This document shows positions 26,484 to 42,566 of a stretch of 64,000 bases of DNA, in pieces (positions within the stretch are counted from its first letter, which is position 1; each line of letters opens with the position of its first letter). A program made the translations under genes and the position numbers. A model generated the notes under the pieces. The model had not been told where the DNA came from and searched no databases. It worked only from the letters and a program-made list of their open reading frames with translations. The DNA is from Burkholderiaceae bacterium (GTDB taxonomy: Bacteria > Pseudomonadota > Gammaproteobacteria > Burkholderiales > Burkholderiaceae_C), in NCBI GenBank assembly GCA_919902775.1, contig CAKKRJ010000006.1, forward strand, positions 118,265 through 182,264, written 5' to 3'.

Positions 26484-26505
26484 GGGTTCAAAAATGGAAA
26501 TATTG

Positions 26506-26527
26506 AAAAAGGCCTGCGCGCAGGCCC
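26506..26527 (-). terminator. Intrinsic terminator between the Bug gene and matB
   Basis: On the minus strand a GGCCTG/CAGGCC stem with a CGCG loop is followed directly by TTTTTC. It lies 20 bases past the Bug stop and 23 bases before the matB start. It would reduce read-through into matB or act as an attenuator. Confidence 0.7.
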
Positions 26528-26546
26528 GTTGAAACAGCCAACCGCC

Positions 26547-27542
26547 TCAATCCAGTTTGGCACCGGAGGCCTTGACCACCTGTGACCACTTGGCCAGTTC
26601 TTTCTTGATGAACGCGTCAAACTGGGTGGTGGTCAGATTGGGAAACTCTGCGCCCTGAGCGGCCCACACGTTTTTGGACTCGTCGGTCAGGGCTGCGCGG
26701 CGGATTTCCTCAATCGCCCGCGCCTGGGCATCGGCTGGCGTGCCTTTGGGTGCCCACACGCCATACCAGGTGGACACGGTGTAATCGGGCAAGCCCAACT
26801 CGGCGGAGCACGGCACATCCGGAAAAGCCGGGTTGCGCTTGCTGCCAGACACCATCATGGCCTTGATGCGGCCGCCCTTGATGTGCGCGGCCGAAGAACC
26901 CAGGCCGTCAAACATCATGTCCACATTGCCTGCGATCAGGTCTTGCAAGGCAGGTCCAGCACCGCGGTAAGGAATGTGGGTGATGAAGGTGTTGGTCTGC
27001 AGCTTGAACAACTCGCCCGCCAGATGGTGGGAGGTGCCGCCACCGGCCGAGCCGTAATTCAAGCGACCAGGGTTCTTTTTGACCAGATCCAAAAACGCCT
27101 TGTAGTCGGCCACCTGGACTTTCTTGGGGTTGACCACCAGCACCTGGGGCACGCTGGCCACCTGAATCAGTGGGATCAGGTCACGTTCCAGGTCATAGTC
27201 GAGCTTGGGGTACATGCTGGGCGCAATGGTGTGGTGCACCGCCCCCATGAACAAGGTGTAACCGTCGGGGCTGGCTTTGGCCGCCAGCCCGGCACCCAGG
27301 GTGCCGCCCGCACCGCCGCGGTTGTCGATGATGAGTTGTTTGCCCGTCAGACGCGAAAACTGTGCCGACAGGGGGCGTGCAAACGCATCGGTGCCACCGC
27401 CCGCCGGGAACGGCACGATCATCGTGACGGGCTTGTTGGGCCAATTGGATTGGGCTTGCGCACCGCAGACGCTGGCCGCAGCGGCCGAAGCTGCCAACTT
27501 CAAAACAGCACGGCGATCGAACAGAGGGTGGGATGGGGTCAT
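26547..27542 (-). CDS. Bug/TctC-type tripartite tricarboxylate receptor
   Basis: 331 residues with a twin-arginine-like leader (R-R-A-V-L-K-L-A-A-S-A-A-A-A-S near residue 10). The mature part has W-P-N-K-P-V-T-M-I-V-P-F-P-A-G-G-G-T-D near residue 38, the family signature, and R-G-G-A-G-G-T-L-G near 80. Bug receptors bind carboxylates in the periplasm. No TctA/TctB membrane genes are present here. Between decarboxylase and synthetase genes, malonate is the likely ligand and it may stand in for a MatC-type carrier with membrane partners encoded elsewhere. Confidence 0.9.
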   Translation of the reverse strand: MTPSHPLFDRRAVLKLAASAAAASVCGAQAQSNWPNKPVTMIVPFPAGGGTDAFARPLSAQFSRLTGKQLIIDNRGGAGGTLGAGLAAKASPDGYTLFMGAVHHTIAPSMYPKLDYDLERDLIPLIQVASVPQVLVVNPKKVQVADYKAFLDLVKKNPGRLNYGSAGGGTSHHLAGELFKLQTNTFITHIPYRGAGPALQDLIAGNVDMMFDGLGSSAAHIKGGRIKAMMVSGSKRNPAFPDVPCSAELGLPDYTVSTWYGVWAPKGTPADAQARAIEEIRRAALTDESKNVWAAQGAEFPNLTTTQFDAFIKKELAKWSQVVKASGAKLD

Positions 27543-27585
27543 GGTGTGTCTCCTTTTTGTGATGAATGCCAATGAATGCGCTGAG

Positions 27586-29067
27586 CTAGAAATACAAGCG
27601 TTCCACGCTGTCTGAAACCGGCACCTTGCCTTGTGCCATGCCTTGGCGGTGCCGGTCAATTTTGCGCAAATCGTACAGATAATTGACCATCAGGCCAAAC
27701 GACTGCTTGACTCCCTTGGTCGACAGATCGGCCGCCCAGTTGATTTGCTCGATGCGGGCACCGTTGCCCAGATGAAAGCGCGCCACCGGGTCGACGGGGC
27801 GCTCCTCGCTGAGCTCCTTGCCCAGGTAATGGGCGGCGCAACCCAGCAGCCACTGCCGCAAAACCGAGCGCTCGGGCAAGTGGGACACTTGCTCCAGTGC
27901 CGACAGCAAATGGCCTGCGGTGGGTGGCTCGAAACCCACGGCGCGACCGAGTTGGGCCTGCATTTTTTCTGGCGTGGCTTCCAGCATGCGACCCGCGTTT
28001 TTGCCCAGCCAGGTCCGAAAACCTGGAATGGGGGACAAAGTAGCAAAGGTTTTGAGCTTGGGAAAGTCGGCGCGCAAGGTTTCGACCACCCGCTTGATCA
28101 GCGAGTCGCCAAAGCTCACGCCCTTCAAACCCTGCTGTGTGTTGCTGATGGAGTAAAAAATTGCGGTTGTGGCCTTGCTCAGATCGACCGCTTCCGCCGT
28201 TTCATCCAGCAAGGGGCTGATGTTGGCGCCGATTTCGTTCATAAACGCCACTTCCACAAAAATCAGTGGCTCATCGGGCAAGCGGGGGTGGAAAAACCCG
28301 TAGCAGCGGCGGTCCGAATCCAGCCGGTTTTTGACATCCCCCCAGCTCTTGATGTCGTGGACCGCTTCGTACTTGATCAGTTTTTCGACCAGACTGGCCG
28401 GCGAATCCCAGCTGATGCGGCGCAATTCCAAAAAGGCCACGTCGAACCAGGTGGTGAACAGGTTCTCGAGTTCGGCTTCCAGTGCCAGCAGGCGTTTGTT
28501 CGATTTGAGTGCAGGGATCAGCTCCTGGCGCAAATCCACCAGAAAACGCATGCCTTCTGGAAAGACCGCAAAGCGCTGCAACAAGCGCGTGCGCGGCGAC
28601 ACCAGCGCTTTGCGCATGCGGATCTCGGCCACCCCTTCGTCGGGGGTGCCCACCGCCGCTTCGTACTGCTCACGGGCAGCCTTCACCTTGCTGGCATCGG
28701 GGGCAAATTGTTCGCTCATCAGCAGCCAGCAGTCCTGGCGCTGCTCAGGCGTGGCCTTGGTGTACCACTGGGCCACGCCGCAGGCCCGCTTGCCGCCTTC
28801 GACCTCGCTCACGCTGGGGTCCACGATCGCCTGCAATTCGGTCAGGGTGCGCCGCAAAACGCGGGGTGACAAGGCTTCTTCCTTGTGGCGCAAGGTGGCA
28901 TTGAGCCTTTCGCGTGAAGAACGTGCAGGCGCCTCTTTGCCCACAACAGCTTTCACTTTGCGCGCCTCCAGCTTACTGTCTGTGGTTGCCGTGGCATGGC
29001 CCCCCTCGCGTTTGCCTGATGGCAGCCAACCCGCTACCGTGCGGCCAATCCATTCCGATGTGTTCAT
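27586..29067 (-). CDS. matA: Malonyl-CoA decarboxylase
   Basis: 493 residues. It converts malonyl-CoA to acetyl-CoA and CO2. The N-terminal helical domain runs to about residue 180 and the C-terminal GNAT-like catalytic domain follows. In the latter, F-A-T-L-S-P-I-P-G-F carries the catalytic Ser region, and R-F-H-L-G-N-G-A with Q-I-N-W-A-A-D carries the catalytic His, as in eukaryotic MCD. ATG 29067 overlaps the regulator stop by ATGA, so the longer frame is rejected. With matB it makes a two-step malonate to acetyl-CoA route. Confidence 0.93.
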   Translation of the reverse strand: MNTSEWIGRTVAGWLPSGKREGGHATATTDSKLEARKVKAVVGKEAPARSSRERLNATLRHKEEALSPRVLRRTLTELQAIVDPSVSEVEGGKRACGVAQWYTKATPEQRQDCWLLMSEQFAPDASKVKAAREQYEAAVGTPDEGVAEIRMRKALVSPRTRLLQRFAVFPEGMRFLVDLRQELIPALKSNKRLLALEAELENLFTTWFDVAFLELRRISWDSPASLVEKLIKYEAVHDIKSWGDVKNRLDSDRRCYGFFHPRLPDEPLIFVEVAFMNEIGANISPLLDETAEAVDLSKATTAIFYSISNTQQGLKGVSFGDSLIKRVVETLRADFPKLKTFATLSPIPGFRTWLGKNAGRMLEATPEKMQAQLGRAVGFEPPTAGHLLSALEQVSHLPERSVLRQWLLGCAAHYLGKELSEERPVDPVARFHLGNGARIEQINWAADLSTKGVKQSFGLMVNYLYDLRKIDRHRQGMAQGKVPVSDSVERLYF

Positions 29068-29768
29068 GTTGCAATCCCAAGCTTGTCGTGTGGTGTGGCG
29101 ACCGCGGCAATGCGGCTTTTGTGCTGGCGCGCCAGCTGGCGCAAGGCTTCGCGCTGCCGTGTCAAATGGGTGCGCATCGCCGCATCGGCCCCTTCGGCAT
29201 CGTGCGCCTTGAGGGCGGCAAAAATCGCCATGTGTTCGGCCAGCGACTGGCTCAAACGCCCGGGCGCATTGAGTTGCTGCAGGCGTGCGAGTTTGAGGAT
29301 CTTGCGCAAGTCGCTGATCACCTGAGCCAACCATTTGTTGCCAGCGATGGCGATGATGGCTTCATGGATCGCGTAGTTGGCGGCGTAGTAATCCGGAATG
29401 CGGCCCTGCGCCGCGCTGTCCTGCAGTTGACTGTGCAGGCCCGCCAATGCGGCAATGTCGGCATCGCTCACCTGCTGGGCTGCTTCAAAAGCGCAACGCC
29501 CTTCGAGCAAGGCGATGACCGGGAAAATATCGTCCAGGTCCTGTTCGGTGACCTCGTTGACAAAACAACCCCGCCGAGGCTCGTGCCGGATCAGGCCTTC
29601 TGCTGTGAGCACCTTGAGCGCCTCTCGCAGCGGTGTGCGTGAAATGGCCAGTTTTTCACACAGCCGCGTTTCATCCACAAACCCCCCCGGCAACAACTCA
29701 CCCGCAAAGATCAGCCCTCGCAGCTGCTCTGCTACTTGGTCGTGTAGCGAATTGACGTGTCCAGCCAT
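29064..29768 (-). CDS. GntR-family regulator (FadR type), probable malonate regulator
   Basis: 234 residues. An N-terminal winged helix (L-H-D-Q-V-A-E-Q-L-R, then L-A-I-S-R-T-P-L-R-E-A-L and G-L-I-R-H-E-P-R-R-G-C-F) is followed by an all-helical FCD ligand domain with conserved D, H and H metal-binding positions. It is the first gene of the malonate operon, overlapping the decarboxylase gene. That position matches MatR of rhizobial mat operons. A TGTAATTACA palindrome sits 32 bases upstream of its start. Confidence 0.88.
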   Translation of the reverse strand: MAGHVNSLHDQVAEQLRGLIFAGELLPGGFVDETRLCEKLAISRTPLREALKVLTAEGLIRHEPRRGCFVNEVTEQDLDDIFPVIALLEGRCAFEAAQQVSDADIAALAGLHSQLQDSAAQGRIPDYYAANYAIHEAIIAIAGNKWLAQVISDLRKILKLARLQQLNAPGRLSQSLAEHMAIFAALKAHDAEGADAAMRTHLTRQREALRQLARQHKSRIAAVATPHDKLGIAT

Positions 29769-29888: not shown

Positions 29889-30545
29889 TCACAGACCGAG
29901 CAAGTTCAAGGCGCGCCGGTAAGAGTCGGCCGGCTGGGTTACATCGAACTGCACCGTCTGCCAGCCTCGTTTCATGGCACCCAGCACATTGCGGCTTTGG
30001 TCGTCCACAAACACACAGTCTGTTGCCGACACACCCAGTGCGGCGGTGCACATGTCATAGGCTCGGGGGTCGGGCTTGAGAACGCCGGTGTAGGTCGCGT
30101 CGATGATCACGTCAAAAAGATGCAACAAGGGCACGTGCTCCCGAAAGCTCGCGCCATAAAACAGGTCCAGCTCGTTCGACAACACCGCCAGCTTGCAGCC
30201 AGCCGCTTTGGCCTGGTGCACGGCAGCGATGGCTTCGGGCCGAATGACGGCATGCACATCGGCCCCCCTCGCACGCTGAACAAAGGTCTGCATGTCATTC
30301 CATTCTTCGCCCAACAATGCACCCACACTGCGGGTTCGGGCCAGCCAGTAGTCGCGCTCGGTGATGCGGTCGGCCTGCATGGCCTGCCACAGCGCATCGG
30401 TCTCGGGCGCAAAGGGCCCACGCCAGGTGAGCGTGCCGGGCGGCAAACCCAGCGCCACCTCGCTCAGCTCGTGCGTTTCAAACAGGGTGCGGCTGATGAC
30501 CCCGCCAAAGTCGAGCACCAACGCTTTAAAAGATGGTGCGTTCAT
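29889..30545 (-). CDS. HAD-superfamily hydrolase
   Basis: 218 residues. Motif I is altered to L-D-F-G-G-V (residues 11-16), as in the HAD-IA group that includes epoxide-hydrolase-like and phosphatase members; the second catalytic Asp of D-x-D is replaced by Gly. Motif II is L-S-N-E near residue 120, motif III lysine is in G-V-L-K-P-D-P, and the final acidic motif is F-V-D-D. Cytoplasmic, substrate unknown. ATG 30545 overlaps the stop of the Tm-1-like gene, so it is the last gene of the P450 operon. Confidence 0.85.
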   Translation of the reverse strand: MNAPSFKALVLDFGGVISRTLFETHELSEVALGLPPGTLTWRGPFAPETDALWQAMQADRITERDYWLARTRSVGALLGEEWNDMQTFVQRARGADVHAVIRPEAIAAVHQAKAAGCKLAVLSNELDLFYGASFREHVPLLHLFDVIIDATYTGVLKPDPRAYDMCTAALGVSATDCVFVDDQSRNVLGAMKRGWQTVQFDVTQPADSYRRALNLLGL

Positions 30546-31783
30546 GGCGCGACCTTCTTCACCAGCCCACGCGACAGCCAGTCGTCAAACACCGAGAGCA
30601 CCTGCTGCACAAACGCTGCGTCATTGATGTGGGCGTCGACGCGAGAGAGCTGCACAGCACCCCACTCGCAACGGGTCATTTCATCCACCAAGGCCGCCAG
30701 TCCTTCGGCATCGTGCAGCGGCCCACCAGGTCGGTCCCACTCTTCAATGCCTTGCAGGGGCAACACCAAATGCACCGGCCCTTGCGCCTGACGCAAACGG
30801 CTGGCCAGCTCGCGGGCCAATTCGCGGCGCATGTTGGCGTCAATGCCCACCGAGGCGATCAATCGGTTATGGTCGTGCGAGGGACGCCCAGCAAAACGCT
30901 CGGGCACTTGACCCCAGGCCGGGTAGTCCACCAAGTCGGTGGCCCCGGGGGCCACGATCATCGGCACGCCTTTCCGGCCCGCCCCCATCAAGCGGTCCGG
31001 CCCAGCACTCACCGCCGAGCCCCCCATCTGGTTGACCATTTCCTGCAAGCTGAAGTCCATCACGCAGGCGAATTGGCCTTGCATGGCCAGCGATTCAAAT
31101 GCCCTGCCACCCATGCCTGTGGTATGAAACACCGCCAAGTCAAAACCTCGCTGATCGAGCTCGGGCTTGAGTTGCACCATGTATTTCAGGCAGCTCGTTC
31201 CCAGCGAGGTCATGCCCACCACAGGCCGCGCAAAACGCGGCGCACGCGCCACGCGGCAGGCCCCCACCACGGCACCTGCGGCTTGCGCCAGGGCCGACTT
31301 GCACAGGCTGTTGAGACCATACAAGCCCCCGGCCCACAGCACCATCATCAAATCCGGCGGCATGCGATCGGGGGGCAACAGGGGCGAAAACGCCACCGTG
31401 GACAGCACCACCTTGGGCACGCCCAGCGGCAAACTGCTGGCCACATCCAGCGCCAAGTCGGTCCCCATGGTGCCGCCCAAAACCAACAGGCCATCCATGC
31501 GGCCCTCGCGCTGCAGTTGGGCGGCCAAAGTGCTTGCACCCTGCGCCATCAAGGCCATAGCACTGTTTTCGTCCCCGCTGTCCATCACCTGCTGCAGCGT
31601 CACACCCGCCGCCTGCGCGACCTGTGTGTTGACGAAGTCCGCCACCACCTGCCCATTGGCCAGCACCCCCACGTCCATGATCAGCGCCCGCCCTCCAGCG
31701 GCCAGCACCTGCTCGCGCATGAAGTCGATCTCGTCGCTCTTGGTGTCGACTGTGCCCACAATCAGGATGACCGGGTGCTTCAT
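30542..31783 (-). CDS. Tm-1-like ATP-binding protein (UPF0261)
   Basis: 413 residues. The N-terminal domain starts I-L-I-V-G-T-V-D-T-K-S-D-E, the nucleotide-binding signature of the family related to the N-terminal part of plant resistance protein Tm-1. G-G-T-M-G-T-D-L-A near residue 100 is another conserved loop, and the second domain has F-H-T-T-G-M-G-G-R near residue 245. Family members are found in catabolic operons but have no agreed reaction. ATG 31783 overlaps the aminotransferase stop and its own stop overlaps the HAD gene. Confidence 0.88.
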   Translation of the reverse strand: MKHPVILIVGTVDTKSDEIDFMREQVLAAGGRALIMDVGVLANGQVVADFVNTQVAQAAGVTLQQVMDSGDENSAMALMAQGASTLAAQLQREGRMDGLLVLGGTMGTDLALDVASSLPLGVPKVVLSTVAFSPLLPPDRMPPDLMMVLWAGGLYGLNSLCKSALAQAAGAVVGACRVARAPRFARPVVGMTSLGTSCLKYMVQLKPELDQRGFDLAVFHTTGMGGRAFESLAMQGQFACVMDFSLQEMVNQMGGSAVSAGPDRLMGAGRKGVPMIVAPGATDLVDYPAWGQVPERFAGRPSHDHNRLIASVGIDANMRRELARELASRLRQAQGPVHLVLPLQGIEEWDRPGGPLHDAEGLAALVDEMTRCEWGAVQLSRVDAHINDAAFVQQVLSVFDDWLSRGLVKKVAP

Positions 31784-33171
31784 GCACGACCCTCCTGCAC
31801 AGCGGCAAAGGCGGTTTCGAGCACATCGCACATGAAGTCCACCTCCTCGCGGGTGATGACCAGTGGGGGCGACAGGATCAGGTTGGGGCCCGAAATGCGC
31901 ACCATCAGGCCCGCCTTGTAAGCCGCTTTGGCCACGCGCGCCGGGATATCGCTGGTACGGGGCATGGGCGTGCGTTGGGCCTTGTCGCTCACCATCTCGA
32001 TCCCCAGCATCAGGCCCACGCCACGTACATCACCCACAAAACTGCAGGCATCCACCAACTTGCGCAAGCGGGTCTGCAGGTGCGCGCCCACGCGGGCGGC
32101 GTTGCCTGGAATGTCCAGTGACTCGATCTGGTCAAGCGTGGCCAGCGCCGCAGCAGCTGCGATCGGGTGGGCGCTGTAGGTGTAGCCGTGCGAGACCGAA
32201 GCCATGCCCGTGGTGTCGGCATCAAACACATCGGCAATGCGGCCGTTGATGGCCGTGGCCCCCAGAGGGACATAGCCCGATGAAATGCCTTTGGCCAAGC
32301 ACCACATGTCGGCGCGAATTCCACCCTGGCCCCACAGGCGGGTGCCGAACAGCTCGCCGCTGCGGCCAAAGCCGGTCACCACCTCGTCGGCAATCAGCAA
32401 CACCCCGTATTTGTCGCAAATCTGGCGCACCAGCGGCCAGTAGTTGGGTGGCGGCACGATCACGCCACCCGCGCCCTGCACCGGCTCGGCAATGAAAGCG
32501 GCGACCGTGTCCGGCCCCTGAAACACGATTTCGCGCTCTAACAGTTCCGCGCAGATTTCGCCCAGACGGATTGGGTCATCGGTGTAAGGGTTGTGATATG
32601 CCCAGGGCGTGTCGATGTGAAAACACCCGGGCAGCAGCGGCTCGTAGGCGCGGCGAAAGTTGGTGTTCCCGTTCACGCTCATTCCGCCAAAGTGCACGCC
32701 GTGGTAACCCTGGCGCAGGCTGATGAACTTGAAGCGGTCGGATTGGCCCTTGAGTTTCCAGTATTGACGCGCCACTTTCAGGGCACCTTCCACCGCGTCC
32801 GAGCCACCGTTGGAGAACATCACGGTGGCCACGCCTTCGGGCTGCATCATCTGCACCAAGCGCTTGGACAGCTCGATCGCCCGCACATGGGTGGTGCCAC
32901 GGAACACGTTGTAAAACGGCAGTTCGTCCATCTGCGCCACGATGGCATCGCGCACAGGCTTGTTGCTGTGCCCTAGGTTGCAAGCCCACAGGCCGCCCAC
33001 ACCATCGAGCATCTTGTGCCCGTCCACATCCCAGATCCAGCAGCCTTCGCCTCGGGCGATGATGTCCGGCGTCGACTTTTTCATCATGCCCGGGTGAGCC
33101 ATCGGGTGCCACAGGTATTGGGCATTATCGGCCTTGAGTTGCGCATTGTTCATGTTGTTTACTTTCATCAT
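31780..33171 (-). CDS. Class III aminotransferase (omega-amino acid:pyruvate type)
   Basis: 463 residues. PLP fold type I with the class III signature: L-L-I-A-D-E-V-V-T-G-F-G-R-S-G near residue 255 and the PLP lysine in L-A-K-G-I-S-S-G-Y-V-P-L-G-A near 288. The N-terminal H-P-M-A-H-P and L-D-G-V-G-G-L-W-A-C-N-L-G-H segments resemble SpuC-type putrescine/pyruvate and beta-alanine/pyruvate enzymes. ATG 33171 overlaps the aldehyde dehydrogenase stop by one base (TGATG). In context it would transaminate an omega-amino acid or diamine released earlier in the pathway. Confidence 0.9.
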   Translation of the reverse strand: MMKVNNMNNAQLKADNAQYLWHPMAHPGMMKKSTPDIIARGEGCWIWDVDGHKMLDGVGGLWACNLGHSNKPVRDAIVAQMDELPFYNVFRGTTHVRAIELSKRLVQMMQPEGVATVMFSNGGSDAVEGALKVARQYWKLKGQSDRFKFISLRQGYHGVHFGGMSVNGNTNFRRAYEPLLPGCFHIDTPWAYHNPYTDDPIRLGEICAELLEREIVFQGPDTVAAFIAEPVQGAGGVIVPPPNYWPLVRQICDKYGVLLIADEVVTGFGRSGELFGTRLWGQGGIRADMWCLAKGISSGYVPLGATAINGRIADVFDADTTGMASVSHGYTYSAHPIAAAAALATLDQIESLDIPGNAARVGAHLQTRLRKLVDACSFVGDVRGVGLMLGIEMVSDKAQRTPMPRTSDIPARVAKAAYKAGLMVRISGPNLILSPPLVITREEVDFMCDVLETAFAAVQEGRA

Positions 33172-34655
33172 CACAGCTGAATCCAGGCCGTTTTCAGGTC
33201 CAGGTATTTGTCCAAAGCGTGCATGGACTTGTCGTGTCCATTGCCCGACTGCCGCACGCCGCCCAACGGCACCGTCACGTCAGGTCCGCCGTAGGTGTTG
33301 ACGTGCACCACCCCGGCCTTGATGGCACGCACCATGCGATGCGCGCGCGAAAGGTTGCCCGTCCACACGGCAGACGCCAAACCGTAGGTCGAATCGTTGG
33401 CCAGGTGCACGGCCTCGGCTTCATCGTCGAACGGCAACACCGCCAGCACCGGACCGAAAATTTCTTCGCGGGCCAGGGTCATGTTGGGCGTCACGCCATC
33501 GAACAAGGCGGGGGCCATGTAACTGCCACCCGCCACAGGCTGCAGCGCACTGCCGCCCACACGCAGGCGGGCACCCTGCTGCTGCGCGGTCTGCACCGCC
33601 GCCAGGTTTTTGACCAGCTGGCGTGCGCTGTTCAACGCGCCGATCTCGGTCGTTACATCGAGCGGGTCACCCACACGCAGGCTGGCGGCGATGGTGTACA
33701 GGCGCTCCACGAATTCGTCGTGCACAGAGCGCTGCACCAACAGGCGCGAGCCCGCCACGCACACCTGCCCGCTGTTGCGGTAGATGCCCATGGCCGATAC
33801 TTTGGCGGCCTGCGCTAGATCAGGCGCATCGTCAAACACGATGTTGGGCGACTTGCCGCCCAGCTCCAGATACACCCTTTTGAGGTTGGACTTGGCCGAG
33901 GCCTTGAGTAGCATGCGCCCCACAGGGCCGGAGCCGGTGAAGGTCAAGATGTCCACATCCATGTGCTGCGCCAGCGCTTCACCCGCCTCTGCGCCGGTGC
34001 CGGTGACGACGTTGAGCACTCCCGGAGGCAAGCCCACGTCCAGACACAACTGCGCCAAGCGCAGCAAAGAAAGCGACGCGTCTTCGGACGGTTTGAGCAC
34101 CACCGAGTTGCCTGCCGCCAACGCGGGTGCGATCTTCCAGGCACCGATCATCAGCGGAAAGTTCCACGGCACGATGGCCGCAACCACGCCCACGGGCTCC
34201 TTGTGGATCAACCCCAGCGTTCCGTCCGGTGTGGGGGCAATCTCACCGTTGATCTTGTCCACACACTCGGCGTAGTAGCGAAAGGTGCTCGCCGCACTGC
34301 CCGGCTCGGCTTTCCAGGCCATGGCGATTTCGGTGCCGTTGTCGCGCACACCCAGCACCGCCAGCTCGGCGTGGTGGGCTTCGATGCGGTCGGCAATGTG
34401 GTGCAACACCTTCTTGCGCTCGGCAGGTGGCATGCGCGACCAGACACCCTGCTCGAAACTGCGCCGTGCCGACTGCACAGCGCGCTCCACATCCTCTGTC
34501 CCAGCAGCAGCGATGGTGCACAAAGTCTGACCGTCGATGGGCGAGACCACGGGCAGCGTCTGGCCTGAGGCCGCAGCAGCCCACTGCCCGTCGATCAGCA
34601 AACCCTGATCGGGGATGGGCAAGTGGCGCAGCGCGTTGATCTGTTCCTGTTTCAT
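33171..34655 (-). CDS. NAD(P)-dependent aldehyde dehydrogenase (PuuC-like)
   Basis: 494 residues. Catalytic Cys299 is in S-G-Q-V-C-V-A-G and the general base Glu265 is in L-E-L-G-G-K-S-P. The cofactor loop F-T-G-S-G-P-V-G is near residue 240 and P-W-N-F-P near 163. Overall resemblance is to gamma-glutamyl-gamma-aminobutyraldehyde and other amino-aldehyde dehydrogenases. It lies 6 bases after the ferredoxin and overlaps the aminotransferase, so it probably oxidises the aldehyde made after P450 attack. Confidence 0.92.
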   Translation of the reverse strand: MKQEQINALRHLPIPDQGLLIDGQWAAAASGQTLPVVSPIDGQTLCTIAAAGTEDVERAVQSARRSFEQGVWSRMPPAERKKVLHHIADRIEAHHAELAVLGVRDNGTEIAMAWKAEPGSAASTFRYYAECVDKINGEIAPTPDGTLGLIHKEPVGVVAAIVPWNFPLMIGAWKIAPALAAGNSVVLKPSEDASLSLLRLAQLCLDVGLPPGVLNVVTGTGAEAGEALAQHMDVDILTFTGSGPVGRMLLKASAKSNLKRVYLELGGKSPNIVFDDAPDLAQAAKVSAMGIYRNSGQVCVAGSRLLVQRSVHDEFVERLYTIAASLRVGDPLDVTTEIGALNSARQLVKNLAAVQTAQQQGARLRVGGSALQPVAGGSYMAPALFDGVTPNMTLAREEIFGPVLAVLPFDDEAEAVHLANDSTYGLASAVWTGNLSRAHRMVRAIKAGVVHVNTYGGPDVTVPLGGVRQSGNGHDKSMHALDKYLDLKTAWIQL

Positions 34656-34661
34656 CGTCGT

Positions 34662-34976
34662 TTAGTCCGGTACGTGCAACACGATGCCGTCGAGCGCACT
34701 CGACGCGATCAGCTGGCAGCTCAGGCGGCTGCCTGGCTGGCGTGGTGAAGTCACGATGTCGAGCATGGCGTTTTCAACTTCGTCCATGGGCGGACAGGCG
34801 GCCAGCCAGGCTTCGTCGACGTACACATGGCAGGTGGCGCACGAGAGGCAGCCCCCGCACTCGCCGGCCACGCCGGAGATGCCGTTGATTTGCGCAGCGT
34901 CCATCAGGTTGGTGCCGTCGTTGACGTCATCGCTCACGCGATCGCCGTTGCTCATGATCCAGTGCACTTGGGGCAT
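34662..34976 (-). CDS. 2Fe-2S ferredoxin (adrenodoxin/putidaredoxin type)
   Basis: 104 residues. The ligands are C-G-G-C-L-S-C-A-T-C (C-x5-C-x2-C pattern within G-E-C-G-G-C-L-S-C-A-T-C-H) near residues 39-48, with a distal Cys near 87 in L-S-C-Q. The H-V-Y-V and M-L-D segments are typical of ferredoxins that reduce bacterial class I P450s. It sits two genes after the P450 in the same operon. No ferredoxin reductase gene is present in the window. Confidence 0.93.
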   Translation of the reverse strand: MPQVHWIMSNGDRVSDDVNDGTNLMDAAQINGISGVAGECGGCLSCATCHVYVDEAWLAACPPMDEVENAMLDIVTSPRQPGSRLSCQLIASSALDGIVLHVPD

Positions 34977-34992
34977 GGTGTGGTCCTTTAGT

Positions 34993-36285
34993 TCAAATGA
35001 AACGGATGTAGTGGTCGCGCAGCGCGTCGCCTTGCAGGCTGGCCGTGCGTTCAATCTCGTGGCGCTTGATGCCCACATGGTTGGCCACCAGGCCTTCGCC
35101 CAGTGTCTGCGTCAACACGGTGTTGGCTTCCAATGCGTCCAATGCTTCGGCCAAGGTGACGGCCACGCTCTGGGTGGCATCCTTGTTTTCGAGGCAATCA
35201 CCGGTTTCCGCTGGCTGCAAGGGATAAGCATGGACAACGCCCAGCCGTGCGGCCTGCAACACTGCGGCCGTGTGAGTGTAGGGGTTGGCTGCGGCGTCGC
35301 CCATGCGGTGCTCGATGCGGGCACCCGAGCCGCTTTCAGCCGACAGGCGCACCGTCACGCCCCGGTGGTCTACCGCCCAGTTTTGCCAAAAGCCCGACAG
35401 ACTGGCCGGTTGCAGGCGCTGGTAGGAGTTGGTACTGGGGGCCAGCAGACCGGCCAGCGCCCGGTGGTGATGCATGAGCCCGGCGGTGCAGCCCAGGGTC
35501 AGCGCGTTGAACTGGTTGGCATCGCGGCCGCCCGAGATCGCGTTGAGGCCTTGGCCATCACGCAGGCTGAAGTTGATGTGGACGCCGCTGCCACCCACCG
35601 TGAGGATTGGCTTGGGCATGAAGGTCAGCACGATGCCATGCTGAAACGCCACCTCACGCGCCAGCAGGCGGAACAAAAAGATGTCGTCCACCGCCTTGAC
35701 GGCACGGTCGTAGGTGAGCGTGAACTCAAACTGCGGCGCATCGTATTCAGTGTTCATGCTGTCGATGCGAAAGCCGGCTGCCGTGGCTTTTTCCCACAGC
35801 ACATCGGTAAAACCGCGGGGATCGGCAAAAGGGCCCGTCGAATAAACATGGGCTGCGGGCGTGTCATAGGGTTTGAGCGAGCCATCGGGCTCGATCTGAA
35901 AGGCAAATGCCTCCAGTTCAATGCCCACCATCGGGTCATAGCCCATGGCTTGCCAGTCGGCCACAGCGCGCTTCAAGGCACTGCGCCCGCACATAGGCAG
36001 CGGCGTGCCGTCATTGGCTTTCAGGTCACCAATCGCCACCCGGGTGAAAGGCTGCCAGCCGGGGCGAATGTCCTCAGAGGTGTAGACGGCCTCCATGTCG
36101 GGCAGGCCTTCCAGGACCATCGCGCCGGGCGCCGGAATCAGTTCTTTTTCATAGCTCACGCCGAAGGTGCCACGGCAAAAGCGGGCGCCGCCGCCCTGGC
36201 CGGGTCGAAGTGTGACGTATTTGCCCCGAGCAATGGCCAAGTGGTCACAAAACAGCACCCGCAGGCGTTCTTGAACAGTCGTCAT
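34993..36285 (-). CDS. Glutamine-synthetase-like gamma-glutamyl ligase
   Basis: 430 residues, the size of GlnA-like type III/PuuA-group enzymes rather than the 470 of true GlnA. Active-site elements are present: the metal-binding glutamates in G-I-E-L-E near residue 138 and Y-D-A-P-Q-F-E-F near 205, the G-S-G-V-H-I-N-F-S loop near 260, and R-x-E-H-R with N-P-Y near 335. Such enzymes join glutamate to an amine using ATP. ATG 36285 follows the P450 stop by 11 bases. Its place beside P450, aldehyde dehydrogenase and amidotransferase genes argues for a catabolic, not assimilatory, role. Confidence 0.88.
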   Translation of the reverse strand: MTTVQERLRVLFCDHLAIARGKYVTLRPGQGGGARFCRGTFGVSYEKELIPAPGAMVLEGLPDMEAVYTSEDIRPGWQPFTRVAIGDLKANDGTPLPMCGRSALKRAVADWQAMGYDPMVGIELEAFAFQIEPDGSLKPYDTPAAHVYSTGPFADPRGFTDVLWEKATAAGFRIDSMNTEYDAPQFEFTLTYDRAVKAVDDIFLFRLLAREVAFQHGIVLTFMPKPILTVGGSGVHINFSLRDGQGLNAISGGRDANQFNALTLGCTAGLMHHHRALAGLLAPSTNSYQRLQPASLSGFWQNWAVDHRGVTVRLSAESGSGARIEHRMGDAAANPYTHTAAVLQAARLGVVHAYPLQPAETGDCLENKDATQSVAVTLAEALDALEANTVLTQTLGEGLVANHVGIKRHEIERTASLQGDALRDHYIRFI

Positions 36286-36296
36286 GGCGTTTCCCT

Positions 36297-37562
36297 TCAG
36301 ATGAGGTGCATGCGCACGGGCAAACGCTTGATGCCCGAGACAAAGTTGGATCGCAAAAACGCGTGCGGTGCGGTCTGCTCGATGCGGTCGACCCGCTTGA
36401 TCAGCTCCTGCATCAGAACGCGCAACTCCAGCCGTGCCAGCCACATGCCCAGACAGGCATGGGCACCGCCCTGCCCGAACGCCAGGTGGCGGTTCACGCC
36501 CCGGCTCAAGTCAACGGTGAACGGCCGGTCAAAAGCCCGCTCGTCGCGGTTGCCTGAGATGAACCAGAGCAGCACCTTGTCGCCCGCCTTGACCTGTTTG
36601 CCGTGGAAATCGAAGTTCTCGGTCGCGGTGCGGCGAAAGTGCGTGGCGGGTGAGGCCCAACGGATGAACTCATCGGCCACGCCCTCCCAGGCAGCCTCCC
36701 CCTGCACCGCCTTGAGCTGGGCCATGAGGCCTGGTTGGTTGGCCAGCGCGTGCAAAGCGGCGGCGATCGAATAACGCGTGGTGTCGTTGCCCGCAGCCAC
36801 GAGCAGGCAAAAGAAGTTGCGGAACTCGGTGTCACTGATCACGTTGCCCTGGGCATCGGGCTGGGTGATCAGGTGCAGCACGCCGCTGCTGTCGCCCGCT
36901 GTGCGCTTGCGTTCCATCAGGTGGGCCGCGTAGTCGTACAGGTCGGCCCCGGCAGGCGAGCGAAACGGCATGAAACGGTAGGCCTCGGTGTCCATCTTGT
37001 CGACCACATGGCTGGTGAAATCGCTGTCGGTATTGGCCATGAGCGCATCGCCCTTGTCCACCAGCCATTCCAGGTCTTCCTCGGGCAGGCCGGCGATGCG
37101 CCCAAGCATGCGCATGGGCAGTTGGCGGGCAATTTGATGCGTGGCGTCAAACTCGCCCAGCGCCAGTGCCTGGTCGAGGATGCCCACACACAGCGCGCGG
37201 ATCTGGTCTTCGTAGAGCGCCATCATGGGCTTTGAAAAGGCCTTGGCCACCAGCATGCGGGTGCGGGTGTGCTCGGGCGGGTCGGTCTCCTGAAAGGTGC
37301 GCCGCGCCATGTACTCCTCGTGCGTCTGGTCTTCCATGCGGATGCCCTGGGCTGAACTCAGGCGCTGGTGGTTGCGGTTGAGCTTCAAGATATCGGCGTG
37401 CCGCGTGACCGACCAGAAACCCTTGCCATCGGCCCAGTCGGACCAGGCCATGGGGTCTTCGTCGCGCAAGCGTTGGAAGGTGTTGTGCGGGGTGCCGTTC
37501 ACATAGCTATCGTGGTCCGACAGGTCGGCGTGGCCATCGTCATTGGGTGTCCAGACGGTCAT
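36297..37562 (-). CDS. Cytochrome P450 monooxygenase (class I)
   Basis: 421 residues, soluble. The oxygen-activating I-helix motif A-G-N-D-T-T is near residue 240, the E-x-x-R pair is in D-E-F-I-R-W near 285, and the heme-thiolate Cys is Cys370 in F-G-Q-G-G-A-H-A-C-L-G. The heme loop is one residue longer than the standard F-G-x-G-x-H-x-C-x-G, as in several sterol-type bacterial P450 families. Electrons should come from the ferredoxin encoded downstream. ATG overlaps the amidotransferase stop. The substrate is not known; the neighbours suggest an amine or its glutamyl amide. Confidence 0.95.
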   Translation of the reverse strand: MTVWTPNDDGHADLSDHDSYVNGTPHNTFQRLRDEDPMAWSDWADGKGFWSVTRHADILKLNRNHQRLSSAQGIRMEDQTHEEYMARRTFQETDPPEHTRTRMLVAKAFSKPMMALYEDQIRALCVGILDQALALGEFDATHQIARQLPMRMLGRIAGLPEEDLEWLVDKGDALMANTDSDFTSHVVDKMDTEAYRFMPFRSPAGADLYDYAAHLMERKRTAGDSSGVLHLITQPDAQGNVISDTEFRNFFCLLVAAGNDTTRYSIAAALHALANQPGLMAQLKAVQGEAAWEGVADEFIRWASPATHFRRTATENFDFHGKQVKAGDKVLLWFISGNRDERAFDRPFTVDLSRGVNRHLAFGQGGAHACLGMWLARLELRVLMQELIKRVDRIEQTAPHAFLRSNFVSGIKRLPVRMHLI

Positions 37563-38287
37563 GGGTTGGTTTCCTTTGCGTGTTCAAAAAACTGCACCAT
37601 CCACTGCCCAAACAGCGACACATCGGCGGCATTGGACAAGCTGGCGTGGGCGCGCGCCAGAGTGTCGGTATCGAGCTTGTCGGCCAGGTAGCCCAGCAAG
37701 GCCTGCATGAACACCAGCGGCATCTCGGGGTGGTACTGCGTGGTCCAAATGTGCTGGCCGATCTGCATCGAACCGATGGGGCAAAAATCGTTGCCGCCCA
37801 GGCACTCGGCCCCTTCGGGCATGCGGGTGACCTGCTCGTTGTGCGCGGCCATCAAGGTGGTGCGGGTCTGGCACGGCGTCATCCAGGGGCGTGCTGCCTG
37901 CCAGTGCGTGGGCGCGGTGCCCAGGCCCCAGCCGGCGGCGTTGCGCGCCACCTGCCCGCCCAGCGCACAGGCCACCGCCTGGTGGCCAAAGCACAGACCG
38001 ATCAAGGGTTGGCGTGCGGCGTGAACGGACCAGATGAATTCAAGCAACGGCCCCACCCATGGCAGGCGTTCATCATTCACCGAGGCCGGGCTGCCGGTGA
38101 TGACATAGCCGTCAAAGGCCTGCGCACTGACCGGGATCACCCCATCCTTGACCGGCACGACTTCGTAAGTCCAGTCGGCCCGCAGGGGTTGCATGAGCTG
38201 CACCACCTTTTGCCCATCGTTCGGAAAATGCGCTGCAAACGGCGAGGTATCGTCGTTGGTCAGCAAAACGGCAATGCGAGGGCTCAT
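37559..38287 (-). CDS. Class I glutamine amidotransferase-like hydrolase
   Basis: 242 residues, free-standing. The nucleophile Cys99 lies in G-L-C-F-G-H-Q-A, and the catalytic His and Glu are in Q-Y-H-P-E-M near residue 180. This is the GMP-synthase-type amidotransferase fold with no synthetase domain. In the Puu pathway a class I amidotransferase-like enzyme (PuuD) hydrolyses gamma-glutamyl-GABA; the same chemistry is the best guess here. First gene of the eight-gene operon; it overlaps the P450 start. ATG 38287 is preferred to an upstream start at 38302. Confidence 0.87.
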   Translation of the reverse strand: MSPRIAVLLTNDDTSPFAAHFPNDGQKVVQLMQPLRADWTYEVVPVKDGVIPVSAQAFDGYVITGSPASVNDERLPWVGPLLEFIWSVHAARQPLIGLCFGHQAVACALGGQVARNAAGWGLGTAPTHWQAARPWMTPCQTRTTLMAAHNEQVTRMPEGAECLGGNDFCPIGSMQIGQHIWTTQYHPEMPLVFMQALLGYLADKLDTDTLARAHASLSNAADVSLFGQWMVQFFEHAKETNP

Positions 38288-38442
38288 TCGGTGTCTTTCC
38301 AAGTCCCGCCAATGCTAGGCACAAGCCGGCCGGGTCACTATCAAGTTTGGGCACCGTGCACCCCGGGTTTTCACGACAATGTCCCAGGTCCCAAAGCAGG
38401 CACACTCAAAGGCATGTACCTGCATCGTGTTTTTCTTCGCCG

Positions 38443-39402
38443 ATGAGCGCCCCCACCCCCGATTCGCCCTGGGTCCAAGTGCTGGACACCCAGGACATGG
38501 ACCAACACGCCCTAGCGCAGCAGGGCTGGGCACTGCAATACGAGCAGCTCTCGCCCGGACAGTTCAGGGGTCACATCCATCAAGTGCAACTGCCTGAAGT
38601 CGCGCTGTTGCGCGAAGACACCAGCATCGCTTTACGTCAACGCGGGCGGCTCGACGACAGCGTGTACGGCTTTGCCATGGCGCTACAGGACTCGCCGGAC
38701 CTGTTTTTCAACGGCCAGCGGGTGCCGACCCACGCCATCATGTGCGGCAAGGGCGATGAGGTGGACCTGACCACCCCGCCCCACTTCACCCTGATCGCGG
38801 TGGTGGTCGAGCGCAGCCTGCTCAACCCGCTGTGGGAGCGCATGTACCAAAAACCCCTGGCGCACTGGCTCGAAAAGCAGCTGGTACTGCAAACCACTGA
38901 CATCAAGGCGCAGAACCTGCGCGACCTGCAGCTCACGGTGCTGGACCAGGCCAGCGCACTGGCGCTCCGCCAGCACGACCCGCAAGCCCTGCGCCAATTG
39001 CGCGATGAGATCCTGATGGAATGGCTCGAAGCCCTGCCCGCGCAGGTCGACACCTCGGAGCTGCCCACCCTGGAGCGGCGCAAGAAATTCGTGGACCGAG
39101 CCTGTGAACTGATGCTGGGCCACGCCGACGAGCCGCTGTCGATTCTCGAAGTGTGCAGCCGAGTGGGCACCAGCCGCCGCAAGCTCAATTACTGCTTTCA
39201 GGACGTGCTGGGTACCACACCGATCAAGTACCTGCGTTCGCTGCGGCTGAACAGCGTGCGGCGTGCCCTGCGCCAGGCCACCCCGGGCGTCACCATCCAG
39301 GACATCGCTTCGCACTGGGGCTTTTGGCATCTGAGCCAGTTCGCCCAGGACTACCGACACCTGTTTGGCGAGCTGCCCTCCGACACGCTTCACAAACGAT
39401 GA
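38443..39402 (+). CDS. AraC-family transcription regulator
   Basis: 319 residues. The C-terminal 100 residues hold two helix-turn-helix units: S-I-L-E-V-C-S-R-V-G-T-S-R-R-K-L near residue 230 and T-I-Q-D-I-A-S-H-W-G-F-W-H-L-S-Q-F-A near 280, ending in the F-G-E-L-P-S-D-T-L motif. The N-terminal part resembles regulators of amine catabolic operons of the EutR/FeaR kind. It is divergent from the amidotransferase gene across 155 bases, so it is the likely activator of the P450 operon. Its stop overlaps the DMT pseudogene start (ATGA). Confidence 0.9.
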   Translation: MSAPTPDSPWVQVLDTQDMDQHALAQQGWALQYEQLSPGQFRGHIHQVQLPEVALLREDTSIALRQRGRLDDSVYGFAMALQDSPDLFFNGQRVPTHAIMCGKGDEVDLTTPPHFTLIAVVVERSLLNPLWERMYQKPLAHWLEKQLVLQTTDIKAQNLRDLQLTVLDQASALALRQHDPQALRQLRDEILMEWLEALPAQVDTSELPTLERRKKFVDRACELMLGHADEPLSILEVCSRVGTSRRKLNYCFQDVLGTTPIKYLRSLRLNSVRRALRQATPGVTIQDIASHWGFWHLSQFAQDYRHLFGELPSDTLHKR

Positions 39403-40274
39403 GCGCCACCCGCCAACCCCAGTTCACAGCCATCTTGACCATGGTCGCGGCCATGGCTTGCCTGTCCACGCAAGACACCTTCAGCAAAAAGCTGATGCTC
39501 AGCGTGGCGCCGGTCATCATCATCTGGACGCGCTACGGTCTACAGACCGCACTGGTCAGCACTGCGCTCTGGCGCAGACGCGCCCCCGCGCTGTGACGCA
39601 CACGGCAATGGCGACTGCAACTGCTGCGCGGCTTGCTCGTCGTGGGGGCCAGCGTGTTCGGCTACGGTGCTTTACAGCGTATGCCTGTGGCCGAATTCAC
39701 CGCCATTTATTGCCTGGTGCAGCTGGCCGTGACTTTGGTGGCCCACTTCGTGATGGAGGAAAGCGTGTCCTGGCTGGGCTGGCTGTGCGTGGCAGGCAGC
39801 ATGGCGGGGACCCTGCTGGACGTGCGCCCGGGCGGCCATGTGGAACCGACGGGTGCCAGCCTGGCGCTGATGGGGGTGGTTTGCTGCACCGTCTTTCAGA
39901 CCCTGACGAGCGTCCTGGCGCGGCAGGACTCGCCGCTCACCATCCAACTGTGCAGCAGCGCGCTGGGCTTTGCGCTCATGTCGGCGGTGGTGCCGTTTTT
40001 CTGGCCTGCCCAGATGCCCTGGTCCGACTTGGCGCTGCTGGGCTTGGTGGCACTGGCGGGCTCATATGGGCAGTACTTCACCGTTTTGGCGTTTTCCAAA
40101 GCGCCTGCATCTGTCCTGTCCCCTTACCTGTACACAGCGATTGGGTTTTCTGCCTTGGGCGGCTAGTGGATGTTTGACCACCTGCCCGACGCCCTGGCCC
40201 TGTGTGGCATGGGCATGATCGCGGGCTTTGGCCTGGTGGCAGGCTGGCTCAACCAACGCAAGGCCACACCATGA
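39399..40274 (+). pseudogene. EamA/DMT-family transporter with two in-frame stops
   Basis: A single reading frame runs from ATG 39399 to TGA 40272-40274 but is interrupted by TGA at 39594-39596 and TAG at 40164-40166, with no frame change. Translating through both stops gives about 290 residues with ten hydrophobic segments, including F-T-A-I-L-T-M-V-A-A-M at the N-terminus and A-L-A-G-S-Y-G-Q-Y-F near the end, typical of drug/metabolite transporters. Both ends keep ATGA overlaps with araC and the DUF2817 gene. As read the protein cannot be complete. An internal start at 39633 would give 177 residues. Confidence 0.85.
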
Positions 40275-41341
40275 GCACACCGCTGTTCAGCCCCAGCTAC
40301 CGTGAGGCCCGAGCACGATTTGTGCAGGCCGCGCAAGCCTGCGACGCACAGTTGCACCGTTACGCCATGCCACTGCCAGGTGCAGATGGCGAAGAACTCG
40401 CCATGGATGTGGCCGTGCAAGGCCCGGCGGATGCGGCCCAAGTGCTGATGACCACCAGCGCAGTGCACGGCATCGAGGGCTTTTGCGGCTCGGCCATCCA
40501 GACCGGTTTGCTGCACAGCCTGTTGCTGCCGCCCGGTGTGGCCGTGGTGCATGTGCATGCGGTCAACCCGCATGGCTTTTCGCATGCGCGGCGGGTCAAC
40601 GAAGACAACGTCGACCTCAACCGCAACTTCATCAACTTTGCTCAGCCCGTGCCGGTCAACGCTGACTACGCGCAGGTCAACGAACTGCTGCTGCCTGACC
40701 GGTGGCCGCCCAGCCCGGAGGCCCGCGCTGCCTTCCAGGCTCAGGCCGACGCCTGGGGCGAGCGCCGCATGCAGCGGGCCATCACCAGTGGGCAATACCA
40801 GTTTGCCCAAGGCGTCTGGTTTGGGGGGCTGGCCCCCACCTGGAGTCACCGCACATTCAGGCAAGTGCTGCAAAACCATCTGGGGCAAGCCCGACAGATC
40901 GCCTGGATCGACCTGCACACGGGCCTGGGGCCGCACGGCCACGGCGAACGCATCTTTGCCTGCACCGACAACGGCGAAACCCTGCAACGCGCCCGCCAAT
41001 GGTGGGGGCCTCAAATTACCTCGGTGGACACGGGCACATCCCAAAGCGTGCCGCTGTCGGGGCCGATCCAGATGGCCATTTACGAAGAATGCCCTCAAGC
41101 GCAATACACCGGCATTTGCCTGGAGTTTGGCACCTTGCCTCTGACGCAAATGATCCAGTCCATGTGCGCCGACCACTGGCTGGCCCTGCACCCCGAAGCC
41201 CCGCCCGAGCAGCAAGGCACCATCCGCGCCGACATGCTGCAGGCCTTCAACCCGCCCTCGACCTTTTGGCAAGAACAGGTTTGGCAGCAGGGCCTGCAAG
41301 CAGCCTGCCAGGCGTTGCAGGGCTTGGCCACGCAAGGCTGA
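40271..41341 (+). CDS. DUF2817 (M14-like) metallo-hydrolase
   Basis: 356 residues, no signal peptide. Zinc-site motifs of M14-type peptidases are visible: H-G-I-E-G near residue 66 (H-x-x-E) and a distal His in I-D-L-H-T-G near 218. V-D-L-N-R-N-F near 118 is the substrate-carboxylate arginine motif, and a late Glu is in C-L-E-F-G-T. Members are predicted carboxypeptidase or amide hydrolases with unknown substrates. The start overlaps the DMT pseudogene stop, so it belongs to the AraC-led transcript. Confidence 0.88.
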   Translation: MSTPLFSPSYREARARFVQAAQACDAQLHRYAMPLPGADGEELAMDVAVQGPADAAQVLMTTSAVHGIEGFCGSAIQTGLLHSLLLPPGVAVVHVHAVNPHGFSHARRVNEDNVDLNRNFINFAQPVPVNADYAQVNELLLPDRWPPSPEARAAFQAQADAWGERRMQRAITSGQYQFAQGVWFGGLAPTWSHRTFRQVLQNHLGQARQIAWIDLHTGLGPHGHGERIFACTDNGETLQRARQWWGPQITSVDTGTSQSVPLSGPIQMAIYEECPQAQYTGICLEFGTLPLTQMIQSMCADHWLALHPEAPPEQQGTIRADMLQAFNPPSTFWQEQVWQQGLQAACQALQGLATQG

Positions 41342-41359
41342 ACCGCGCTTTTCTCGGGA

Positions 41360-41385
41360 AAACCCCGCGCAGGGTTTGCAATTTT
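41360..41385 (+). terminator. Possible weak terminator after the DUF2817 gene
   Basis: AAACCC and GGGTTT form a 6-bp stem around CGCGCA, followed by GCAATTTTT. The stem is short and the T-run is displaced, so termination would be partial. The rest of the 142-base gap to the Bug gene shows nothing I can support. Confidence 0.3.
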
Positions 41386-41483
41386 TCGATACCTTCAAAT
41401 TCGTATCTTGTTCAGACTGTGACACTGACCCGGGGTGGCAAGCACAAGCCCCCCCTCCAACAGGACATACAAGGACGACACCC

Positions 41484-42461
41484 ATGATTTCACGCCGTAC
41501 GATTTCACGCCTGCTCACCGGTCTGCTGGGCAGCCTGATGGTGCTCAGCGCCTCTGCACAGGGCTTCCCCAACAAAATGGTCACCGTGATGGTGCCCTAC
41601 CCAGCGGGCGGCCCATCGGATGCGGTGGCCCGCCTGGTACAAGTCGAGTATGAAAAGAACCTTGGCCAAAAATTGATGGTCGAAAACCTGGGTGGCGTGA
41701 GCGGCGCCCTGGGCATTCAGAAGGTGCTGGCGTCACCCGCTGATGGCTACTACCAGCTGATGGGCACACCCATGGAGTTGGTCATGGCGCCACTGGCCCT
41801 GTCGGCCGTTAAGTTCAAACCCGAAGAAGTGCGCTTGGCCAGTTTGATGGGCCGCACATCCATCGGTCTGGCCATCCGCAAGGACATCCCGGCCAAAAAC
41901 TTGCCTGAATTCCTGGCCTGGGCCAAGGGCAAACAAGTCAGCTACGCCAGCGTGGGTCAAGGCTCGCTCTACCACATCATGGGCGAGCGCTTCAAGACAC
42001 TGACCAGCCTGGACCTGCTGCATGTGCCCTATAAAGCGGCAGTGCAGATCTACACCGACTTGGGCGGCGGCAGCGTAGACATGGCGTTTGTGCCGGTCGC
42101 AGGACCCATCATTGGCATGGTCAAGGACAACCGCTTCAAGATCATCGGCATCACCTCCACCGCGCCTCACCCCCAACTGCCGGAGGCCGCACCGATCAGT
42201 GCGCAGCGCGGCATGTCCGACTTTGTGTTTGACATCTGGATCGGTCTTCAAGTGTCCAAAAACACGCCCGACGCTGTGGTCCAGAAGCTCAACCAAGCCA
42301 TGAATGAGGCAATCAAGTCCGAAGCCTTCGTCAAAGGCATGGCCACCACCGGCAGCCAAGTGCCTGCAGGCATGAGCCTATCCGAGTTGGACAAGTTCTA
42401 CACGCAAGAGGTCGTCCGCTACCGCGCCCTGTTCAAGGCCGCCAACGTCGAGCCACAGTGA
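41484..42461 (+). CDS. Bug/TctC-type periplasmic receptor
   Basis: 325 residues with a Sec signal peptide (cleavage after S-A-S-A-Q near residue 26). F-P-N-K-M-V-T-V-M-V-P-Y-P-A-G-G-P-S-D near residue 28 is the family signature, followed by V-E-N-L-G-G-V-S-G-A-L-G. Ligand residues are not identifiable. It is an orphan receptor without TctAB genes, in a transcript with amidases, so it may bind an amino- or amide-bearing carboxylate. ATG 41484 begins the leader; a longer frame from 41376 has no leader features. Confidence 0.9.
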   Translation: MISRRTISRLLTGLLGSLMVLSASAQGFPNKMVTVMVPYPAGGPSDAVARLVQVEYEKNLGQKLMVENLGGVSGALGIQKVLASPADGYYQLMGTPMELVMAPLALSAVKFKPEEVRLASLMGRTSIGLAIRKDIPAKNLPEFLAWAKGKQVSYASVGQGSLYHIMGERFKTLTSLDLLHVPYKAAVQIYTDLGGGSVDMAFVPVAGPIIGMVKDNRFKIIGITSTAPHPQLPEAAPISAQRGMSDFVFDIWIGLQVSKNTPDAVVQKLNQAMNEAIKSEAFVKGMATTGSQVPAGMSLSELDKFYTQEVVRYRALFKAANVEPQ

Positions 42462-42566
42462 AGTCCGGAGTGATCAGTACCCCCCGCGCTGACTCTCTCT
42501 CCGCCCGGGACATGCTCACCCCACGTGATATGCCCGGGTTTTTCATTCCTGCTTTCCTCGTCCCAC

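Follow-up and report, generated by a model that had tools for sequence, protein, structure and literature searches.

What does a cytochrome P450 oxidize when its gene lies between those of an amidotransferase-like hydrolase and a glutamine-synthetase-like ligase? The question is raised by an eight-gene operon (29889-38287, minus strand) in a 64,000-nucleotide stretch of DNA from a Burkholderiaceae bacterium (GenBank assembly GCA_919902775.1, contig CAKKRJ010000006.1, positions 118,265 to 182,264); the whole stretch is called the window, and positions in this genome are given in its coordinates. A preliminary description of this DNA had read the operon as a Puu pathway, the route by which E. 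coli breaks down putrescine, with the P450 replacing the flavin oxidase. Our comparisons favor a different answer: by gene content, the closest functional analogue appears to be the isopropylamine (Ipu) pathway, rather than Puu. Gamma-glutamylation of an amine, oxidation by the P450 and deglutamylation, followed by transamination and aldehyde oxidation, as the preliminary description had also proposed, are the best reading of the parts, and this scheme is probable. More tentatively, and with somewhat less than an even chance of being right, we infer the reactions, their order and the substrate of an Ipu-like pathway that would act on an arylethylamine.

How is the operon built? Coordinates and Pfam/NCBIfam matches bear out the eight genes on one strand and the families first assigned to them, and the operon is confirmed as real. 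Read in the direction of transcription, it opens with a class I glutamine amidotransferase (GATase)-like protein (37559-38287; PF00117), a predicted gamma-glutamyl amide hydrolase with G-L-C-F-G and H-P-E motifs, followed by the P450 (36297-37562; PF00067), the glutamine-synthetase (GS)-like ligase (34993-36285; PF00120) and a [2Fe-2S] ferredoxin of the putidaredoxin type (34662-34976; PF00111; C.{5}C..C motif), the predicted electron donor of the P450. Then come a PuuC/KauB-like aldehyde dehydrogenase (ALDH; 33171-34655; PF00171), a class III aminotransferase (31780-33171; PF00202), a Tm-1-like UPF0261 protein (30542-31783; PF06792 and PF23189) and a HAD-family hydrolase (29889-30545; PF00702) for which no NCBIfam equivalog scored above its cut-off; the last two are given no step in the proposed pathway. 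To call the junctions mostly ATGA overlaps, as had been done, is an overstatement: three of the seven are 4-base ATGA overlaps (GATase/P450, aminotransferase/Tm-1 and Tm-1/HAD), the ALDH and aminotransferase genes share 1 base, and the other three junctions are gaps of 11, 16 and 6 bases. The expected catalytic motifs are present in the P450 (whose heme loop is one residue longer than the plain F..G...C.G search pattern), GATase, ferredoxin, aminotransferase and ALDH. Among solved proteins, putidaredoxin is the nearest relative of the ferredoxin (E about 1e-27), omega-transaminase 5lh9 is the top match of the aminotransferase, and KauB and a gamma-glutamyl-gamma-aminobutyraldehyde dehydrogenase are the top matches of the ALDH, which falls under the PuuC equivalog cut-off. 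A class I P450 system would need a P450, a [2Fe-2S] ferredoxin and a reductase; there is no reductase gene among the eight.

Is the ligase simply another GlnA? The assembled host genome, a draft of 3.49 Mb that is 84% complete, encodes two P450s and two proteins with a GS catalytic domain, one GlnA and the operon ligase. The latter scores under the cut-offs of the GlnA, GlnT and PuuA equivalog models. The ligase was aligned with the host GlnA, two other GlnA proteins, GlnT, PuuA, IpuC, NpaA1, an aniline-type ligase and others: the ammonium-site Asp and Ser (presumably D50 and S53 in Salmonella numbering) are found in all three GlnA proteins and are missing from the operon ligase and 13 aligned relatives. 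The ligase retains the positions of E129, E131, G265, H269 and R321 and has Gly at that of N264. In a 25-row tree, a 100/100 branch splits off 14 P450-linked ligases, with the three GlnA proteins grouping elsewhere; the clade stands apart from IpuC and NpaA1 and is not grouped with PuuA. Because the ammonium-site residues are absent and the clade is separate and well supported, the ligase is no ammonia-assimilating GlnA, an identity that would have undermined the preliminary description; it is predicted to be a gamma-glutamyl amine ligase.

Which known pathway, then, does the operon resemble? The Ipu pathway was reportedly first described in Pseudomonas sp. KIE171. One region of plasmid pTC2 of Paenarthrobacter aurescens TC1 holds an ipuC ligase, a P450, a ferredoxin, a class I GATase, an ALDH and a class III aminotransferase, and the reaction order fits as well: in the isopropylamine route, according to PMC6776027, the amine is first glutamylated, the P450 then hydroxylates the gamma-glutamyl amide, and hydrolysis comes last. 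The combination, taken at first to be undescribed, thus has a precedent in kind. In sequence, however, the two systems are far apart. The operon ligase is 27% identical to its TC1 counterpart, the P450 29%, the ALDH 41% and the aminotransferase 32%; the GATase is 28% identical to the TC1 GATase that lies apart from the P450 and does not match the P450-adjacent one, and the ferredoxin is of a different type without a TC1 match. The TC1 region also has a reductase, two GATases and more than one ALDH, whereas the operon lacks the reductase and adds the Tm-1-like and HAD genes, and its relatives have aromatic neighbors. Hence the clustering of ligase, P450, ferredoxin and GATase is shared with Ipu and orthology is not, the ligase falling outside the IpuC branch. 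Another likeness is to the aniline and 1-naphthylamine pathways (AtdA/TdnQ type, NpaA1), in which ligase and GATase flank a Rieske dioxygenase (PMC11335346); the operon GATase is 31% identical to NpaA2 of JS3066, but a P450 stands in place of the dioxygenase, and the operon ligase, 27% identical to NpaA1, belongs to another clade. E. coli Puu (PuuA, PuuB, PuuC and PuuD were compared, PuuE in part) has enzymes with the same roles of ligase, hydrolase, ALDH and aminotransferase, and the ALDH is 51% identical to PuuC; the ligase, by contrast, is 29% identical to PuuA, the PuuD match spans 70 residues (E 0.008), and PuuB has no match among the eight proteins. The operon thus appears to work like Ipu yet belongs to neither system.

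Do the genes of the operon travel together? An alignment of 18 ligase rows was scanned against species genomes, and the best 80 of at least 374 stretches encoding a relative were kept; we sorted these loci into 33 of a Burkholderiales type and 47 others (Dongia type, Rhizobiaceae, Rhodobacteraceae type and some titled Gammaproteobacteria). Genes of the relatives were called by conservation, since calling the longest open reading frame works poorly in high-GC DNA. Key family labels were checked by hidden Markov model or Protein Data Bank sequence search for one member each; ADC-like, IclR, GntR, TctA/B/C, DMT, C5 methyltransferase and, outside Ruegeria sp. TM1040, paa-type are labels given on reading the sequence. 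The P450 and ligase genes are same-strand neighbors in 79/79 loci that hold both, across Alpha-, Beta- and Gammaproteobacteria; one locus of the 80 (L072) shows no P450. The GATase gene lies at most 500 bases from the P450 gene wherever both occur (65/65 loci), on the opposite strand in 34, and the ferredoxin gene lies at most 500 bases from the ligase gene in 62/65 loci. All eight genes keep order and strand in 26/80 loci; this shared order and the constant P450-ligase adjacency argue that the grouping is more than chance.

Other members of the neighborhood are less constant. A divergent AraC gene lies within 1 kb upstream of the GATase gene in 22 loci; its counterpart in the window (38437-39402, plus strand; PF12833; EutR model under cut-off) encodes a predicted AraC-type regulator. 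A consensus scan found three promoter-like sites (1.4 in shuffled sequence) and six terminator-like sites (7.2 in shuffled sequence), which is not clearly more than chance would give; none of them lies between the GATase and AraC genes. A ferredoxin reductase gene is part of the cluster in 12/80 loci, three of them of the Burkholderiales type (L016, L024 and L027), and an amino acid permease gene adjoins it in 14/80 (L023 and L024 being Burkholderiales-type examples). The Tm-1-like gene is also found near the cluster in alphaproteobacterial relatives; the order in TM1040 is Tm-1-like, ALDH, TctA, TctB, TctC, IclR, aminotransferase, FkbM methyltransferase, ligase, P450, GATase and GntR. In a sister clade, each of four loci has the genes for ligase, P450, GATase, TctA and TctC inside a span of 18 kb, and three add an aminotransferase gene; ligase, P450 and GATase genes are neighbors on one strand in three, and sister-clade locus L101 has its P450 and ferredoxin genes reversed, with GntR between them and the ligase gene. 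In a 199-genome sample around an Ahrensia-labelled genome, seven genomes have the ligase. Between the ferredoxin and ALDH genes of three operons (L013 11600-13400, L021 6420-8220 and L016 4450-6250) lies an opposite-strand gene that reads as DNA-cytosine-methyltransferase-like. Two records look like mislabelled or contaminated bins: L005, titled Akkermansia muciniphila, has a Limnohabitans-like cluster (ligase 93%), and L064, titled Flavobacteriia, an alphaproteobacterial-type one.

Which amine could such a cassette serve? A cyclic amine, as first suggested, has no pointer in the neighborhoods examined; genes for aromatic amines and arylacetates appear instead. Homoprotocatechuate, fumarylacetoacetase or aromatic-amino-acid-decarboxylase genes occupy the same stretch in 21/47 non-Burkholderiales loci, or 16/47 once five Dongia-type loci with only a sub-cut-off HpaD-like gene are removed. 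Among the neighbors scanned, HpaD (both types), HpaE, HpaH, HpaR and fumarylacetoacetase exceed curated cut-offs and HpaI-like proteins fall slightly under theirs; fumarylacetoacetase and a FAD-dependent oxidoreductase are neighbors in six loci. The decarboxylase, whose top solved match is a DOPA decarboxylase, is encoded in 11/47 of these loci and in 20/20 alpha- and gammaproteobacterial carriers tested. Seven Dongia-type loci (L034, L037, L039, L040, L043, L044 and L048) have P450, ligase, ferredoxin and reductase together with an amino acid permease, a dioxygenase resembling HpaD and an ALDH resembling HpaE; the HpaD-like protein of L037 scores 142 bits (cut-off 316). No GATase or aminotransferase was seen in these seven stretches, and ring cleavage while the amine is still tagged is therefore conceivable there.

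The same association is seen genome-wide. HpaD (TIGR02298) is above cut-off in 23/35 carrier genomes and 0/14 controls. Among 295 genomes around Shimia thalassica, it is found in 20 of the 48 whose ligase is at least 57% identical to that of Shimia and in 17/247 others (Fisher one-sided p 8e-9), or in 20/58 vs 17/237 when all 58 ligase carriers are counted (p 5e-7); among 200 genomes of the host's family, 4/4 carriers and 51/196 others have it (p 0.005), all three values ignoring the kinship of the genomes. The aromatic neighbors in relatives and the enrichment of HpaD in carriers are what is new here. The host itself has an hpa run on another contig, in which HpaR, HpaG-C, HpaE, HpaD and HpaH score above cut-off and HpaG-N below, with HpaF assigned by Pfam CHMI. 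Some relatives have this meta-cleavage pathway right beside the cluster. HpaB, the enzyme that classically feeds it, was looked for without success in the host genome and in 12 Limnohabitans-type carriers (G000-G011); a link between the two pathways is presumed. Two genomes assigned to the same genus as the host have HpaD at the very positions where it lies in the genomes of Limnohabitans loci L006 and L015, and the host is therefore taken to be a Limnohabitans. One hpa operon (G000:C8; L090 8990-14758) has no HpaB/HpaC pair in its run. Might the P450 replace HpaB? HpaB should then be rarer in carriers. It is absent in 19/23 HpaD-positive carriers, and we considered this argument and set it aside: many HpaD-positive genomes lack HpaB whether or not they carry the cluster, so HpaB absence fails to separate the two groups and does not show a replacement. 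In the family sample, 39/55 HpaD-positive genomes are without HpaB, which implies that a different hydroxylase, or a different origin of homoprotocatechuate, is widespread in the family.

How might the operon feed such a pathway? The ligase would couple glutamate to the amine, likely tyramine or another arylethylamine; the P450 and its ferredoxin would hydroxylate the glutamate-tagged amine, and the GATase-like hydrolase would release the hydroxylated amine from glutamate. The aminotransferase would then convert the freed amine to an arylacetaldehyde, which the ALDH would oxidize to an arylacetate. With tyramine, the route would lead from gamma-glutamyl-tyramine through gamma-glutamyl-dopamine, dopamine and 3,4-dihydroxyphenylacetaldehyde to homoprotocatechuate, a compound that the hpa operon elsewhere in the host genome could cleave. 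In its most specific form, which is doubtful, the proposal holds that a dedicated P450 may hydroxylate the ring of gamma-glutamyl-tyramine to give gamma-glutamyl-dopamine, bypassing 4-hydroxyphenylacetate in aquatic Proteobacteria, and that ligase, P450, ferredoxin and hydrolase may travel as a cassette with lineage-specific transporters and ring-opening modules. The nearest solved relatives of the P450 are of the CYP125, 268, 126 and 124 types; over 17 relatives (70-95% identity), in regions that we placed ourselves, the presumed substrate loop keeps 24/28 residues and the I-helix stretch 22/23, against 48% overall, a pattern that fits one fixed substrate and does not name it. A structure model (mean predicted local distance difference test score 65, presumed substrate loop below 50) was not used.

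Several observations weigh against an arylethylamine. Aromatic neighbors are found in 0/33 Burkholderiales-type loci, and the decarboxylase gene in 0/15 Burkholderiales carriers tested, the host genome included; Limnohabitans, lacking it, would have to import the amine ready-made. Ten genomes of the Shimia-centered sample have the sister-clade ligase alone (45-51% identical to that of Shimia), and none has HpaD. Of the 37 HpaD-positive genomes of that sample, 34 are without HpaB (18/20 carriers and 16/17 non-carriers). To this must be added the neglect of kinship in the co-occurrence statistics. In TM1040, paaABCD follow the cluster, which suits unhydroxylated phenylacetate; many relatives have TctC-type carboxylate transporters, ill-suited to a plain amine, close to the cluster; and two further presumed substrate stretches of the P450 (7/12 and 6/13 residues kept) are near average conservation.

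Could other amines explain the operon better? A small aliphatic amine might be degraded as in Ipu, the P450 hydroxylating the alkyl chain of its gamma-glutamyl amide and the aromatic genes being neighbors by chance or through a shared niche. Parts of the same kind as in the TC1 isopropylamine cluster and the permease that adjoins 14 loci would suit this account, which the distance from the TC1 ligase, P450 and ferredoxin, the separation of the ligase clade from IpuC, the aromatic neighbors and the HpaD co-occurrence make unlikely. Still less probable is a pathway for catecholamines. Its amine would arrive already hydroxylated (dopamine from DOPA), leaving the P450 a different step on the tagged compound, such as O-demethylation or oxidation of the side chain. 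The DOPA-decarboxylase-like gene in 11/47 non-Burkholderiales loci and in all 20 alpha- and gammaproteobacterial carriers (a count made among carriers only), together with its top solved match, points that way, and its absence from the 15 Burkholderiales carriers points back.

The remaining two candidates are the ones with which the preliminary description began. A Puu-like polyamine pathway, with the P450 standing in for PuuB, can appeal to the ALDH, through both its PuuC identity and its top solved matches; only this enzyme is close to Puu, for PuuB has no match, PuuD a weak one, and the ligase scores far under the gamma-glutamylputrescine synthetase cut-off and does not group with PuuA, so that such a pathway is highly improbable. 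Least probable of all is the opening of a morpholine, piperidine or pyrrolidine ring by the P450. Gulosibacter PipA/MorA-like P450 genes do adjoin glutamine synthetase genes, as PMC9477822 reports, but no gene of such a pathway was noticed in the neighborhoods; the comparison of the P450 covered its relatives, the TC1 P450 and solved P450s.

What of the genes that flank the operon? Downstream lies a malonate-type operon (24939-29768, minus strand) for a GntR/FCD regulator, malonyl-CoA decarboxylase, a TctC-type binding protein and malonyl-CoA synthase. Malonate was considered as the end product of the pathway and rejected: relatives (at least 45% identical) of the decarboxylase and synthase lie near the cluster in 11 and 20/80 loci, all of the Burkholderiales type, and since these loci are few we treat the malonyl-CoA genes as a neighboring operon. 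Beyond the AraC gene, a frame resembling a DMT-type transporter (39399-40166, plus strand) has in-frame stops at 39594-39596 and 40164-40166; nine related loci contain similar DNA, and the open piece gave no Pfam match, so the name is a sequence reading. Farther on (40202-44610, plus strand) are genes for a DUF2817 protein, a TctC-type binding protein without adjoining TctA/B and an amidase; the DUF2817 and TctC-type proteins have relatives close to the cluster in 9 and 10/80 loci, respectively.

What would an Ipu-like pathway for arylethylamines mean for these bacteria? Glutamate tagging combined with P450 oxidation has been described for isopropylamine (PMC6776027), and in the open-access literature we found no paper that joins a P450, gamma-glutamylation and arylethylamines, which is no proof of absence. 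If the proposal is true, common water bacteria would apply tagging and P450 oxidation together to natural aromatic amines, and a ligase family named merely glutamine synthetase in sources would acquire a function. The P450 family conserved in Limnohabitans and in Roseobacter-type bacteria would become directly testable, and the operon would represent a little-noticed route by which natural amines are recycled in water.

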